Shown here: piece after piece, positions 2,962 through 37,210 of the stretch
Position numbering within the stretch: position 1 is the stretch's first letter
Layout: every line of letters starts with the position of its first letter
DNA from: Candidatus Gastranaerophilales bacterium
GTDB lineage: Bacteria; Cyanobacteriota; Vampirovibrionia; Gastranaerophilales; Gastranaerophilaceae
NCBI GenBank assembly: GCA_944324365.1
Contig: CALUWA010000010.1
Coordinates: forward strand, 1 to 51,795
Direction: 5' to 3'
DNA length: 51,795 bases
The notes under the pieces: generated by a model
Database searches by the model: none
The model's input: only the letters and a program-made list of their open reading frames with translations
What the model was told of the DNA's origin: nothing
Made by a program: the position numbers and the translations under genes

Positions 2962-4188
2962 TTATTTAAGCATTTCCGCCCAGTCAGCAGCAAGTTTTTC
3001 CAGAATTTTCAAAGTATCGCCTTCTCCAAGAAGAATTTTTTGAGTTGCAGAATTAATCAAATTATTTATATCTTTTTGGTTTTGTGATGAATGCAGAACC
3101 GGCTCAACTTTATCTAACTGTTTTGCGCTTATCACACGAGCTTTTGCCATCAAATCATCATCTGAATATTTTGTATAAAAATCATTGCGGAGGGTTTCTT
3201 TATTCACGGCGATTACATTTGTAAGTTTTGCAAGTTCAAGTTCGTTTTTGTCATTTGTCAAAAACAGAGCAAATTTTAACGCCTCGTCTTTGTGTTTTGC
3301 TTTTAAAGGAATTACAAAATTCATTAGAGAAAAATCGTTTTGTCCGAGTTTCCCGGTCATTTGCGGTGCCACATCGGTATTTTGATATGTCAGAGGAGCA
3401 TTTTCCTTAATCATATTTAAAAAATTTGCACCAGCCTGGAAAAGCACAATATTTTCGGACATATATTTTTCAAGCGCTTCTCTGTGAGTTTGGGTGATTG
3501 ATTCTTTAGGGATAAGATTTTTTGAATATAAATCTTTAAAATATTCAAAAACCTCGACAGAAGTTTCGCTTGTTATTGTTTGCGGAGAATTTACACCGTA
3601 CTTGTTCAAGATTTTAAGCATAGTATCGTTTTCCGTAATATTAGGAAGAAATACATATGCACCTGTCTTTGATTTTATAGTCTGAGCGGCATGTCCTGCT
3701 TTTTCATAAGTCAATGGAACCTCAATTCCTGCTTTATCAATTAGTTTCTTGTTATAAATTGTAACGGCAGAAGTCGCATACCACGGAAGAGAATACAACT
3801 TCCCGTTGTATTTTAAAGACTCAATTATTGAAGGATTAAATTGTGAGGTGCTGCTATCCGGGATTTCATACAAAGCCCCTTTCTGCGCAAGAGCAGCCGA
3901 AAAATCAGGATTAAGATTAATCAAATCCGGCGGATTGTCGCTTAAAACAGAAGCAAGAGTTCTTTTTTCACCTTCCGAGAACGGAACATCAATCCATTTG
4001 ATTTTAATCTCCGGATTTTCATTTTCAAATTCCCGGATTACACCATTAATATAATCCGAAAAATCACTCATCTGCAAAGTCCAAAAGATAACTTCATTGT
4101 TATCTTTCGGGCCATGAAAAATTTTGAAACCAACCCCGGCACATATAATAACTATCACTAACACTAAAACAAATCTTAATTTATTCAT
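2962..4188 (-). CDS. Extracellular solute-binding protein, family 1 (sugar type)
   Basis: About 408 aa. It begins with a hydrophobic N-terminal segment (LRFVLVLVIVIICAGVGF), then a family 1 binding-protein fold: VIFWTLQMSDF, the D-P-P-D-L-I-N-L hinge motif, an ALYEIPDS segment, YSLPWYATSAVTIYNKKL and FALFLTNDKNELELAKLT near the end. These are hallmarks of the MalE/UgpB-like proteins that deliver sugars to ABC importers. The N-terminus lacks a canonical lipobox (VIIC), so it may stay anchored by an uncleaved segment. The start at 4188 is chosen for CAGGGG upstream; an ATG at 4212 has no RBS. No permease or ATPase gene adjoins it, so its substrate is unknown. Confidence 0.85.
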   Translation of the reverse strand: MNKLRFVLVLVIVIICAGVGFKIFHGPKDNNEVIFWTLQMSDFSDYINGVIREFENENPEIKIKWIDVPFSEGEKRTLASVLSDNPPDLINLNPDFSAALAQKGALYEIPDSSTSQFNPSIIESLKYNGKLYSLPWYATSAVTIYNKKLIDKAGIEVPLTYEKAGHAAQTIKSKTGAYVFLPNITENDTMLKILNKYGVNSPQTITSETSVEVFEYFKDLYSKNLIPKESITQTHREALEKYMSENIVLFQAGANFLNMIKENAPLTYQNTDVAPQMTGKLGQNDFSLMNFVIPLKAKHKDEALKFALFLTNDKNELELAKLTNVIAVNKETLRNDFYTKYSDDDLMAKARVISAKQLDKVEPVLHSSQNQKDINNLINSATQKILLGEGDTLKILEKLAADWAEMLK

Positions 4189-33537: not shown

Positions 33538-33965
33538 TGGAATTAGCTCTTGAACAGGCAAAACTATCAGGTGCTGATATTCCTGTCGGTGCCGTAATTG
33601 TTTTGGACGGACAAATTATCTCATCTGCCTGCAACCGAAAAGAACAAACAAACGATGTAACTGCACACGCAGAAGTTGTTGCGATAAAACAAGCAGCACA
33701 AAACCTGGGCAATTGGCGGCTTGATGAATGCGAAATGTATGTCACATTGGAACCCTGCCCGATGTGCGCTTGGGCAATTATTCAATCAAGGATTAAGACC
33801 GTTTATTTCGGAAGTTATGATGTTAATTACGGTGCCCTTGGCTCCAAAATTGATTTGAGAAATCTTTTAAATTCTCCCCTAAAAGTTTATGGCGGCATAA
33901 TGGAGAGTGAATGCGACAAATTGCTTAAAGATTATTTTGCTAAATTAAGAACAAACAAAAATTAA
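33534..33965 (+). CDS. tadA: tRNA(adenine34) deaminase TadA-like
   Basis: 143 aa. Zinc deaminase converting A34 of tRNA-Arg(ACG) to inosine. Motifs: IPVGAVIVLDG, TAHAEVVAI (zinc His45, catalytic Glu47) and EPCPMCAWAIIQSRI (zinc Cys75 and Cys78), plus the TadA-type YFGSYDVNYGALGS. The C-terminus (VYGGIMESECDKLLKDYF) is TadA-like rather than cytidine deaminase-like. It is fused in translation to the kinase gene by an ATGA overlap (ATGATG gives two candidate starts). It converges with trmD: the two coding ends overlap by 4 bp. Confidence 0.9.
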   Translation: MMELALEQAKLSGADIPVGAVIVLDGQIISSACNRKEQTNDVTAHAEVVAIKQAAQNLGNWRLDECEMYVTLEPCPMCAWAIIQSRIKTVYFGSYDVNYGALGSKIDLRNLLNSPLKVYGGIMESECDKLLKDYFAKLRTNKN

Positions 33966-34651
33966 TTTTCATCAATATATTTTTGATACAAATCCGGACG
34001 TTTTTGCCTTGTTCTTTCTAAAGACTGTTGATATCTGAATTCGTTTATATCTTTGTGGTTGCCGTTTAGGAGAACTTCCGGGACTTTATATCCTCTGAAA
34101 TCTCTCGGACGCGTATACTGCGGATATTCCAAAAGCCCGTTTGAAAAACTGTCCTCATCAGCTGATTCTATTTTCCCCAATGTACCCTCAATTTTGCGGC
34201 TGACAGCATCAATAAGACACAGTGCAGGCAACTCCCCGCCCGTTAATACAAAATCACCTATAGAAATTTCACGCGGTTTTATTATTTCCCTGATTCTTTC
34301 GTCAAACCCTTCGTAATGTCCGCATAGCATAACTATCTGCTCAAATCCGGCAAGCTCATTTACAACTTTATCGGTTAAAGGTTCTCCCTGCGGTGAAAGC
34401 ATTATAGTAACAGAATTTTCTAACTTATCCACGGCAGCATACGCATCAACATACGGCTGCGGCATTAAAACCATACCGGCGCCGCCGCCGTAAGGGATAT
34501 CATCAACTTTTTTGTGTTTATTTTCCGTATAATCCCGCGGATTTACCGTATTTATAGATACAACTCCGCCTTCGACCGCACGTTTTAAAATGCTGAACTG
34601 AAAATAATTTTCGACCATTTCAGGGAATAAAGTAAGTACATCAAACCTCAT
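33962..34651 (-). CDS. trmD: tRNA (guanine37-N1)-methyltransferase TrmD
   Basis: 229 aa, SPOUT family. It makes m1G37 next to the anticodon and prevents +1 frameshifting. Seen: MRFDVLTLFPEMVENYFQFS, VDDIPYGGGAGMVLMPQP, VIMLSPQGEP-like MLSPQGEPLTD, LCGHYEGFDERI and ISIGDFVLTGGELPA (the trefoil-knot SAM pocket), then the C-terminal YPQYTRPRDFRG and VLLNGNHKDI. Everything expected is intact. Start overlaps the rimM stop by 4 bp. rpsP and rplS, its usual neighbours, are missing here. Confidence 0.97.
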   Translation of the reverse strand: MRFDVLTLFPEMVENYFQFSILKRAVEGGVVSINTVNPRDYTENKHKKVDDIPYGGGAGMVLMPQPYVDAYAAVDKLENSVTIMLSPQGEPLTDKVVNELAGFEQIVMLCGHYEGFDERIREIIKPREISIGDFVLTGGELPALCLIDAVSRKIEGTLGKIESADEDSFSNGLLEYPQYTRPRDFRGYKVPEVLLNGNHKDINEFRYQQSLERTRQKRPDLYQKYIDEN

Positions 34652-35160
34652 TCAAGCAGTCCCTCAAGATTATTTATAACAATCTTTTTGTCCTTAATGC
34701 TTACTTCTCTTATTATCGCCTGCACAAAAGGTACAAGACAGATGTGTTTTGAGTTTGTTTTGACGGAAAGCAAGTCGCTTGCTCCGTTGTTAGAAACCCC
34801 GATAACAAACCCGAGTTTCTTATCATTTTCATCAAAAACACTTAATCCGACAAGTTCATCAATAAGAAATTCATCCTCTTCAAGATTTTCTCTTATAGTA
34901 TTTTCGTCCACAAATAAAAGCTTGCCTTTGTATTCCATCAGATCATTAATAGAATCTATTCCCTTGAATTTGAAAAGTGCAAAATTTTTATTTATACGCA
35001 CCTGCTCAACATCCAAAGGCTTGTACTCAGAACCTTCCTGAACATAAACTTTATCCAGCATAAGCAGAAAATCTTCCTGGTTTTTAGTGAAACCGACTTT
35101 AGCTTCACCTTTAATCCCGTGGAAATTCAAAATTTTGCCGACTGAAATATATTTAGTCAT
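34648..35160 (-). CDS. rimM: Ribosome maturation factor RimM
   Basis: 170 aa. RimM binds S19 and helps form the 30S head. It begins MTKYISVGKILNFHGIKGEA (canonical G-x-I-x-x-x-H-G-x-K-G-E), has an N-terminal beta-barrel and a C-terminal PRC-like barrel (DELVGLSVFDENDKKLGFVIG, SVKTNSKHICLVPFVQAII). The start overlaps the stop of the zinc-ribbon gene (TAATG) and its end overlaps trmD, so the three genes are translationally coupled. Confidence 0.94.
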   Translation of the reverse strand: MTKYISVGKILNFHGIKGEAKVGFTKNQEDFLLMLDKVYVQEGSEYKPLDVEQVRINKNFALFKFKGIDSINDLMEYKGKLLFVDENTIRENLEEDEFLIDELVGLSVFDENDKKLGFVIGVSNNGASDLLSVKTNSKHICLVPFVQAIIREVSIKDKKIVINNLEGLLE

Positions 35161-36206
35161 TACTCTTCAACTGCTTCTTCGGTTTTTTTAGGTTTTCTGC
35201 CGCGTTTTGGTTTTTCTTCCTCAGCCGGGGCTTCTACCGCAACTGCTGCTTCTTTTGCTTCTTCAGCAGGTTCTTCCGGTTTTGCAGCTTCCTGATTCTG
35301 TTTATTTTTAAATTCTTCAGGAACATCTTCTCTTTCCTGGTTCCAGCGCTGTAAGCCCATCTGTGAACGAATTAAACCGATACCAACGTGAACACGCCAT
35401 TCGTCCATTTTTAACTGTGCTGCGATAATTTTGTGGCAGCCGATTGGAGGAAGCGGAAGCAGCGGTTCATACAAGTTCTTAATTGCAAACAACTGATCCG
35501 GTGTAATTGCAAGCTTACGTTTCGGGAACGGTAATTTCGGAAGCATAAGTTTTTGTCTTACAAGATTTATACCGAAAAATACTTTTCTTGGTTCTACACC
35601 GATTTTTTCCGCAATAACTTCATGGGCATCCGGATTTGGAAGCGGAAGCATTGTCTTATATAATGCTTCAATTTGCTCTAATTGCTCCTTGCTGATTAAC
35701 AACTGTTTTGGAGTTTTGTTTTTATTCATAGGGCGTTTATTGTTAAATCCGCCTCTGTTAAATCCTTGTCTGTTATTATAATTTCTGTTGTCGCGTCTTT
35801 GGAAACCGCCTTGCGGTCTGTTATATCCGCCTCTATTGTCGCGTCTTTGGTAATTTCCCTGCGGTCTGTTGTATCCGCCTCTATTGTCGCGTCTTTGATT
35901 GTCACGTCTTGGGTAATTGCCGCCAGGAGCGCTGTTATAAGAACGCTGCGGACGCGGACGCCCCTCTCCTGCACTGTAACTGTTATAAAACTGCGGCTGT
36001 GTTTCCGTACTGTAGCCGTTTAACGGTTCCGAAGCCGAAGCCGGAGCCGGAGCCGGTGCTGAAGCTGCAGGTTCATTTTCACTTCCGCTGTCAGACGGAT
36101 TAATCATCATTTTCTTATCCGGGTATAAACAATCCGGACATATAACTCTTTTGGGGTTCTTAGTTTCAAATTCCCGACCGCATTTGACGCATTTGTTTAC
36201 ATACAT
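35160..36206 (-). CDS. Zinc-ribbon / RGG-rich protein with a duplicated domain
   Basis: 348 aa, not a family I can name. Residues 1-30 are a treble-clef style zinc ribbon (C6-x2-C9 and C23-x2-C26). Residues about 75-160 are Arg/Gly/Asn-rich with 16-residue tandem repeats (RRDNRGGYNRPQGNYQ), like RNA-binding RGG tracts. Then two homologous units of about 55 residues: ISKEQLEQIEALYKTMLPLP...VFFGINLVRQKL and ITPDQLFAIKNLYEPLLPLP...VHVGIGLIRSQM, each helical with an LPLP turn. The C-terminus is Ala/Glu/Lys-rich. First gene of the operon with rimM and trmD, in the place where rpsP or the KH protein usually stands, so an RNA or ribosome role is likely. SD is AAGAGG. Confidence 0.65.
   Translation of the reverse strand: MYVNKCVKCGREFETKNPKRVICPDCLYPDKKMMINPSDSGSENEPAASAPAPAPASASEPLNGYSTETQPQFYNSYSAGEGRPRPQRSYNSAPGGNYPRRDNQRRDNRGGYNRPQGNYQRRDNRGGYNRPQGGFQRRDNRNYNNRQGFNRGGFNNKRPMNKNKTPKQLLISKEQLEQIEALYKTMLPLPNPDAHEVIAEKIGVEPRKVFFGINLVRQKLMLPKLPFPKRKLAITPDQLFAIKNLYEPLLPLPPIGCHKIIAAQLKMDEWRVHVGIGLIRSQMGLQRWNQEREDVPEEFKNKQNQEAAKPEEPAEEAKEAAVAVEAPAEEEKPKRGRKPKKTEEAVEE
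35790..35898. repeat. 48-bp tandem repeats within the RGG-coding region
   Basis: GTCGCGTCTTTGG recurs at 35790, 35838 and, with a changed end, 35886: an exact 48-bp period matching the 16-residue protein repeat. The repeat number could vary between strains. Confidence 0.8.
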
Positions 36207-36334
36207 AATAAAAGCCTCTTAATTGTTAAAAAATAATCTCATAAACTATAAAAAATAAAATAAAACTGGTTTGTTAATCTATAAATAAAAATCCTCTAGC
36301 ATAAAGTAAATCAACGATATATCTTAATGGTATT

Positions 36335-36363
36335 ATTATAACACATCCTCAAATTATAATCAA
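36335..36363 (-). promoter_or_regulatory. Promoter of the zinc-ribbon-rimM-trmD operon
   Basis: Minus strand TTGATT, 17-bp spacer, TATAAT (forward ATTATA 36335-36340; AATCAA 36358-36363). The start codon is about 120 nt downstream, so the mRNA has a long AU-rich leader (36207-36328), room for feedback regulation. I see no named riboswitch or ribosomal-protein leader in it. Confidence 0.65.
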
Positions 36364-36376
36364 GAGGGTAAATTTT

Positions 36377-36814
36377 TTATTTTTCTACCATAAAAGTTAC
36401 AGGCCCGTCATTTATAAGCGCAACATCCATCATAGCGCGAAACTTGCCGGTTTTGACGGATACATTGAATGAACTGATATTTTTAACAAATATTTCATAA
36501 AGCCGTTCGGCAATTTCCGGAGGTGCGGATTTATCAAAACTCGGGCGTGTCCCTTTTTTACAATCCCCGCATAGAGTAAACTGCGATACGACAAGCATTT
36601 CGCCATTAACGTCAATTAGCGATTTATTCATTTTTTCCTGTTCATCTTCAAATATTCGCAGATTAACAAGTTTTTGAGCAAGTTTTTGGGCATTTTCTTC
36701 CGTGTCACCTTTTTCAACCCCCAAAAACACCAGCATTCCTGCCGATATCTCGGAATAGAGTTCGGAATTAATTGTAACTGATGCTTTTTTAACTCTTTGA
36801 ATTAATGCTTTCAT
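36377..36814 (-). CDS. dtd: D-aminoacyl-tRNA deacylase
   Basis: 145 aa. Removes D-amino acids (and glycine mischarged on tRNA-Ala) from tRNA. Seen: MKALIQRVKKASVTI, the catalytic SQFTLCGDCKKGTRPSF motif, the cis-Gly-Pro hallmark near the C-terminus in LINDGPVTFMVEK, and LVFLGVEKGDTEENA. Full length with all key residues. Start ATG 36814, SD absent; a TATAGT -10 lies 7 nt upstream, so the mRNA may be leaderless or nearly so. It is followed on the same strand by the zinc-ribbon operon, which has its own promoter. Confidence 0.95.
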   Translation of the reverse strand: MKALIQRVKKASVTINSELYSEISAGMLVFLGVEKGDTEENAQKLAQKLVNLRIFEDEQEKMNKSLIDVNGEMLVVSQFTLCGDCKKGTRPSFDKSAPPEIAERLYEIFVKNISSFNVSVKTGKFRAMMDVALINDGPVTFMVEK

Positions 36815-36850: not shown

Positions 36851-36916
36851 TTTTTGACGGCCATATTAGCATAAAAAGATTTTCAGGGGATATAATGCAT
36901 GCAAATAGGGGAAAAC

Positions 36917-37210
36917 ATGAAAGTACAAGCAATTAATACATATACTCCTTCTGCGAACAATAAAATTGCCAGAAATAGTCATGTATCACGTGTTAGCTTC
37001 GGATTTGGCGATGACTACGGAAATGAAGAATTTCTCTACGATTCAGACCACAAATCCGGCGGCAATATCTTTGAATATATAGGTTTGGCGATTGCTTTTC
37101 CTTTTGCTTGGATTCATGAGGTCATAAAAGAAAAACGTGCTGCAAAAAAAGCACGTGAAGGTAAATCGCTGAACGATTCGGAAAACTTTGATATAAACGA
37201 ATTTTCATAA
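36917..37210 (+). CDS. 97-aa hypothetical protein with VSFG motif
   Basis: Starts at ATG 36917 (MKVQAINTYTPSANN), 6 nt after AGGGG; an ATG at 36899 lacks an RBS. The N-terminus is polar, Ser/Thr/Asn-rich and leads to SRVSFGFGDD, a V-S-F-G element that I associate with small proteins of this bacterial group (recollection, not a search). A membrane-like amphipathic segment (NIFEYIGLAIAFPFAWIHEV) is followed by a basic stretch (KEKRAAKKAREGK). TATAAT lies at 36891-36896. Unknown function. Confidence 0.5.
   Translation: MKVQAINTYTPSANNKIARNSHVSRVSFGFGDDYGNEEFLYDSDHKSGGNIFEYIGLAIAFPFAWIHEVIKEKRAAKKAREGKSLNDSENFDINEFS

Follow-up and report, generated by a model that had tools for sequence, protein, structure and literature searches.

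Gene X, the reading frame directly upstream of rimM and trmD in the 51,795-nucleotide stretch of DNA analysed here (the window), encodes a protein with a recognisable repeat fold: two tandem units, each predicted to be tri-helical and of the homeodomain-like helix-turn-helix (HTH) type. The combination of a zinc finger, an R/G/Y-rich arm, this double HTH and an AT-hook-like tail is an unusual architecture for bacteria. We tentatively read the protein as an abundant, probably self-regulating nucleic-acid binder whose HTH pair would read double-stranded nucleic acid, most likely DNA; from the sequence and the modelled structure we put the probability of this reading at roughly 0.45. The gene is unnamed in Pfam and NCBIfam, and a literature search did not find its product in any paper. 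Being single-copy and conserved as well as unnamed, it is a promising candidate for a nucleic-acid-binding protein that is essential and that defines its lineage, the Gastranaerophilales, which are common non-photosynthetic relatives of cyanobacteria in animal guts.

Domain architecture of the gene X protein

The preliminary description of this DNA recognised a CxxC-x13-CxxC ribbon; it lies at the N-terminus, and the four cysteines concerned are indeed invariant in an alignment of 19 diverse relatives. By its two conserved CxxC knuckles the region is a predicted C4 finger or ribbon; the structural model gives a beta-hairpin followed by a short helix, with pLDDT of about 90. Pfam returns only weak matches to many ribbons, and those of RNA polymerase and of ribosomal proteins are likewise matched weakly. 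Beyond the finger, the model of the full-length protein has pLDDT values mostly below 50 across residues 40-157 and 307-348, the former lying in the arm and the latter in the charged tail (residues 290-348). R, G, N, Q and Y are abundant in the arm, whose length and repeats differ between the 135 relatives compared. In the window protein two 16-residue units, RRDNRGGYNRPQGNYQ and RRDNRGGYNRPQGGFQ, are near-identical and are followed by a decayed third copy, so the 16-residue repeats described earlier are present; their designation as RGG-type fits less well. Strict RGG triplets number three in the window protein, with a median of one over the 135 relatives, GGY and GGF being plentiful instead; since strict triplets are this sparse, 'R/G/N/Q/Y-rich' is a more accurate term than 'RGG tract'.

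Table 1. Positions of gene X, its parts and its neighbours within the window.
Feature	Position	Strand	Remarks
Gene X (complete)	35160-36206	-	348 aa, ATG start; zinc finger, disordered arm, tandem HTH, acidic/basic tail
rimM	34648-35160	-	Shares one base with X (TAATG)
trmD	33962-34651	-	
dtd (D-Tyr-tRNA deacylase)	36377-36814	-	Upstream neighbour of X; in some genomes upstream of X despite no rimM linkage
C4 zinc finger, residues 1-30	36117-36206	-	C6, C9, C23, C26; FETKNPKR core highly conserved
Disordered R/G/N/Q/Y-rich arm, residues about 33-165	35712-36110	-	From pLDDT and composition
Two near-perfect 16-aa repeats, residues 105-136	35799-35894	-	RRDNRGGYNRPQG(N/G)(Y/F)Q; from sequence
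HTH repeat 1, residues 167-227	35526-35708	-	Best stretch for Pfam Homeodomain; three predicted helices
HTH repeat 2, residues 229-289	35340-35522	-	Most conserved part of X (LPxPPIGxHK, EWRxHVxI)
AT-hook-like KPKRGRKPKK, residues 332-341	35184-35213	-	Follows acidic stretch
Frozen ribosome-binding-site element AATTAAGAGGCT (12-mer)	36213-36224	-	From leaders of relatives
Upstream purine-rich leader element AGAGGA	36292-36297	-	GAGGAG or GGGAG elsewhere
Candidate promoter TTGATT-17-TATAAT	36335-36363	-	Consensus match only, not above chance

The two repeats align without gaps over 58 residues, with a z of about 18.5 against shuffled sequences, and a profile-profile comparison of one with the other gives a probability of 98.7 (E 4e-16). 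The duplicated domain with an LPLP turn that had been noticed earlier is thus borne out, with units of about 60 residues, but it is not novel in fold, as it matches the homeodomain-like HTH. The Pfam Homeodomain profile (PF00046) matches all 15 relatives in the domain alignment, with a best E of 2.7e-6; at the profile's curated cut-off of 22.9 bits, the isolated tandem domain of the window protein scores 24.9, the full-length protein 21.2 and repeat 1 alone 19.1. The Homeodomain match extends only as far as position 45 of the 57 in the profile, and the WFxNxR signature of the recognition helix is absent from both repeats, where the corresponding stretches read VFFGINLVRQK and VHVGIGLIRSQ.

An AlphaFold2 model of the tandem domain (mean pLDDT 86) consists of two three-helix units, with helices predicted at 8-19, 29-37 and 41-54 and at 71-84, 92-100 and 104-118, the three-helix arrangement of an HTH in each case. 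When this model was compared with the PDB by Foldseek, DUX4 double homeodomains took the first six places, followed by a tandem engrailed homeodomain in seventh; these best matches have E values of 3e-3 to 2e-2, none reaching 0.001, and a best probability of 0.99. SelB bound to RNA is also among the matches, and the model of the full-length protein places the same families (DUX4 and engrailed homeodomains) on top. Superposition over the whole length is poor, with TM-scores of only about 0.3 and a large rmsd, which indicates that the relative placement of the two HTH units is not reproduced. Single units match many HTH folds; the VIA-align list is led by assorted HTH folds with Z below 6 and proves no specific relative, and no sequence relative of the tandem domain in the PDB was better than E 0.3. 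Given the missing WFxNxR signature, the placement that is not reproduced and the many HTH folds matched by single units, we name the region a tandem homeodomain-like HTH and not a homeodomain. A match of the repeat to a known fold outside RNA binding had been named in the preliminary description as a finding that would count against its RNA-centred proposal; a known fold is matched, and the best-known members of that fold bind DNA.

The protein ends in KPKRGRKPKKTEEAVEE. An RGR[KP] motif occurs in the tail of 100 of the 135 distinct relatives and is missing in 35; the members read of genera g17, g18 and g22 do not have it at all; some lineages carry the canonical KRGRPKK, and one relative (L273) has the hook-like motif twice. 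AT-hooks are defined by a GRP core with basic flanks, can also bind RNA, and often accompany domains that bind the major groove (PMC11354804). The KRGRKPKK of the window protein departs from this definition in having a K between R and P, and we refer to it as AT-hook-like.

Some of these features would also suit a protein-protein adaptor, in which neither the HTH pair nor the zinc finger would still bind nucleic acid, both instead contacting a conserved machine such as RNA polymerase or the ribosome, with the arm as no more than a tether. The LPxP turns and the EWRxHVxI motif are extremely conserved across families, the base-contact signature of homeodomains is lost, and the finger does match polymerase and ribosomal ribbons, if only weakly. 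Such an adaptor is nevertheless improbable in our view, as basic residues that never vary in repeat 2 and in the linker (PKR, HK, R) favour nucleic acid, and the basic arm and the tail motif do likewise.

Distribution and genomic neighbours

Of 286 genomes of the order, 277 carry gene X; among the 261 good ones the figure is 259. Its absence from close relatives looks like a matter of assembly gaps, since one such genome (G238) also lacks trmD and another (G191) has trmD at a contig edge; a weak score in a further genome (G209) is an assembly effect, the gene being split over the ends of two contigs (L111 and L112). With the tandem-domain profile, nearly all X-bearing genomes of the order give one match, consistent with a single-copy gene. 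In the wider class, families f9, f14 and f15 carry X (E 1e-55 to 1e-68); it was not found in the listed members of families f8 and f10-f13, and it is absent from all other Cyanobacteriota sampled. Identity of the protein core to that of the window ranges from 56 to 90%, and is about at least 75% across the order and at least 55% across the class.

In the window the stop codon of X and the start codon of rimM share one base (TAATG), confirming the overlap noted earlier. Of the 257 X-bearing loci that were fetched, a redundant set drawn mostly from family f1, 199 have rimM within 60 nt of X. This close spacing might suggest a dedicated component of the rimM-trmD pathway, acting in 30S maturation or in tRNA m1G37 methylation. 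The X-rimM-trmD arrangement is found in most of family f1, but the linkage is absent in the f1 genera g17, g18, g22 and g27 and in every other X-bearing family examined, and the sequence core of X is unchanged at all locations, rimM-linked or otherwise. Outgroup genomes, moreover, have rimM and trmD without X beside them. We therefore regard a dedicated role in this pathway as very improbable.

The neighbours of X elsewhere, several of them identified by Pfam, are diverse. The dtd gene adjoins X in some genomes of families f3, f4 and f7; other neighbours are infC-rplT (one f4 genome), yebC (f3), serine dehydratase genes (f9 and f15), queA and era (f15), gatB or secE (f14), and a MiaB-like gene or ffh (f1 genera). 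A 103-residue small ORF (MKVQAINTYTPSANNKIARNSHVSRVSFG) lies between dtd and ffh at 36899-37210 (+) of the window, and close relatives have diverged homologues there. In g17 and g18 a zinc-ribbon protein of 157-159 residues (GLINCKKCG...DxCxxC) is encoded divergently beside X (L276:3841-4311, L285:4309-4788 and L288:2429-2902).

The earlier account had assumed that this locus normally holds rpsP and/or a KH protein. In this lineage rpsP lies away from rimM-trmD, and the gene that precedes rimM in two outgroup Gastranaerophilales genomes (L261:4404-4880 and L264:1383-1895), at the site occupied by X in f1, is ylqD. X as a replacement for rpsP is likewise discounted, rpsP being present elsewhere in 14 of 14 genomes checked. 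Conservation of the operon across the order, which had been put forward as a check, does not hold, the linkage being confined to part of one family, and orthologues in unrelated contexts, whose predominance was to tell against the proposal, do occur. With linkage so limited the operon argument fails; as it is missing from the other families, X-rimM-trmD is best read as derived, and the place of X beside ribosome-maturation genes is a local accident and not a clue to function. What survives of the proposed lineage-specific ribosome or tRNA factor is a lineage-specific protein of nucleic-acid-binding type; the link to ribosomes or tRNA by way of the operon does not. The case illustrates how a tempting operon argument can mislead once a core gene has merely relocated.

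The leader and the choice between DNA and RNA

The ribosome-binding site of X carries a 12-mer, AATTAAGAGGCT, found in 99% of 75 unique leaders of near relatives. By comparison, no 12-mer ahead of dtd in those genomes is shared by more than 11%; these relatives are not independent, and the counts overstate the evidence accordingly. In genera without linked rimM the ribosome-binding-site words differ from AATTAAGAGGCT. Very conserved upstream words also precede two further genes in relatives; in L147 these are the ORFs that start near 4166 (minus) and 9177 (plus), with products beginning MSIRTALTSV... and MGSYEENYLSKRP.... A purine-rich element, mostly 60-90 nt upstream, is present in 87% of X leaders but in just 6% of those used as controls.

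Several other explanations of the leader were considered and set aside. In this genome TTAAGAGGCT is carried only by X and by the two arms of a terminator-like hairpin, and does not mark a regulon. X leaders fold no better than shuffled sequences (mean z +0.57), which speaks against a structured leader or riboswitch, and Rfam gave no match up to E 1 in the 5 kb around X. Short upstream ATG frames, read by eye, are out of frame between relatives and do not suggest a leader peptide. The 120-nt leader proposed earlier can be reproduced from a -35/-10 pair with 17-nt spacing at 36363-36335, which gives about 120 nt, but the scan that found this pair did no better than on shuffled sequence. Codon bias suggests that X is highly expressed: it stands 11th of 147 ORFs, in the company of ribosomal proteins and GroEL. 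This ranking is only an indication, as it was made on part of the genome and with some spurious ORFs in the list.

The position of the frozen element on the ribosome-binding site points to control of translation, and so perhaps to RNA binding. X may be an RNA-binding protein (an RNA chaperone, a ribosome-associated protein or an mRNA-translation factor), its HTH pair binding structured RNA, its arm providing RNA affinity and condensation, and its own translation being repressed through the frozen element; this is close to the original reading, without reliance on the operon. Homeodomain-like and winged HTH folds also bind RNA, and the C-terminal domain of ribosomal protein L11, which has a homeodomain-like fold, binds rRNA. 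The R/G/N/Q/Y-rich arm is present in all relatives examined, a frozen 12-mer in an unstructured leader is as expected of a single-stranded RNA site, SelB RNA-binding domains appear among the Foldseek matches, and genes of translation or tRNA lie beside several independent X sites (rimM-trmD, dtd, infC-rplT, yebC, queA and gatB, also era, secE and ffh), by a raw tally. On the other side, profile and fold searches both give DNA-binding homeodomains as their best matches, the tails are AT-hook-like and strict RGG is sparse, the neighbours vary and at other sites are serine dehydratase genes, and the surrounding 5 kb matches no Rfam family. The choice is close, because fold and tail point to DNA, and the arm, together with where the frozen element lies, to RNA; we hold an RNA-binding role to be a tenable but less favoured possibility.

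For a DNA-binding protein, which we prefer, sequence and predicted fold suggest that the two repeats would act together as a bipartite head that reads double-stranded nucleic acid, DNA being the likeliest, in a manner comparable to double-homeodomain proteins. The flexible arm may contribute weak, non-specific nucleic-acid contacts and self-association, and would tie the HTH head to the zinc finger, which could contact a protein partner such as RNA polymerase or add nucleic-acid contacts of its own. In most members the acidic, AT-hook-like tail might make minor-groove contacts, its motif being arranged as in the HMGA-like tail of CarD. The gene has a single copy, is strongly conserved and favours the codons of highly expressed genes; for these reasons the protein probably serves the nucleoid or transcription in general and is less likely to be a local regulator. 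Its level would probably be set by feedback on its own leader, the one with the conserved ribosome-binding site.

Comparison with known systems

Taken together, the double homeodomain-like reader, the sticky R/G/Y-rich arm and the HMGA-like tail could be combined in a more speculative reading, which we consider rather unlikely: a core, abundant bacterial counterpart of the chromatin or RNP proteins that form condensates, which would organise the nucleoid or the RNP bodies and is not seen outside the non-photosynthetic gut cyanobacteria and their relatives. Disordered RNA-binding proteins rich in R and G include those of the FUS/hnRNP type, and the glycine-rich tails of the cyanobacterial Rbp proteins are a bacterial example. 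Like these, X joins a low-complexity R/G/Y arm to a folded domain of nucleic-acid-binding type; unlike them, its folded part is a tandem HTH, its strict RGG triplets are few, and Pfam found no RRM or KH domain in it.

DUX4 HD1-HD2 and the PF00046 family, which supply the best fold match and the profile match, share with X a pair of homeodomain-like units of three helices each, with a short linker between them. X differs in the absence of WFxNxR, in the LPLP turn between helices 1 and 2, in its flanking zinc finger and R/G/Y-rich arm, and in being bacterial. CarD of Myxococcus xanthus has an HMGA-like tail in which an acidic stretch is followed by AT-hooks (PMC4374960), and X resembles it in combining a structured bacterial domain with a disordered tail that is first acidic and then AT-hook-like. 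The N-terminal domain of CarD is absent from X, and the tail of X is short, with one or two hook-like motifs that a quarter of relatives lack.

Closer to home, families f8 and f13, which lack X, have a frame of 343-409 codons (L306, L307, L308 and L310) that encodes a MerR-type HTH, a C4 finger (CQTCGKGFEHSNPKLRDCLDC) and, at the C-terminus, a conserved domain of helices. These proteins resemble X in having an HTH at one end, a disordered-looking middle and a similar C4 finger, although the similarity between the fingers is weak (E about 0.02); they differ in that their HTH is single and N-terminal, the finger lies in the middle, and there is no tandem repeat. They are possibly a functional counterpart of X.
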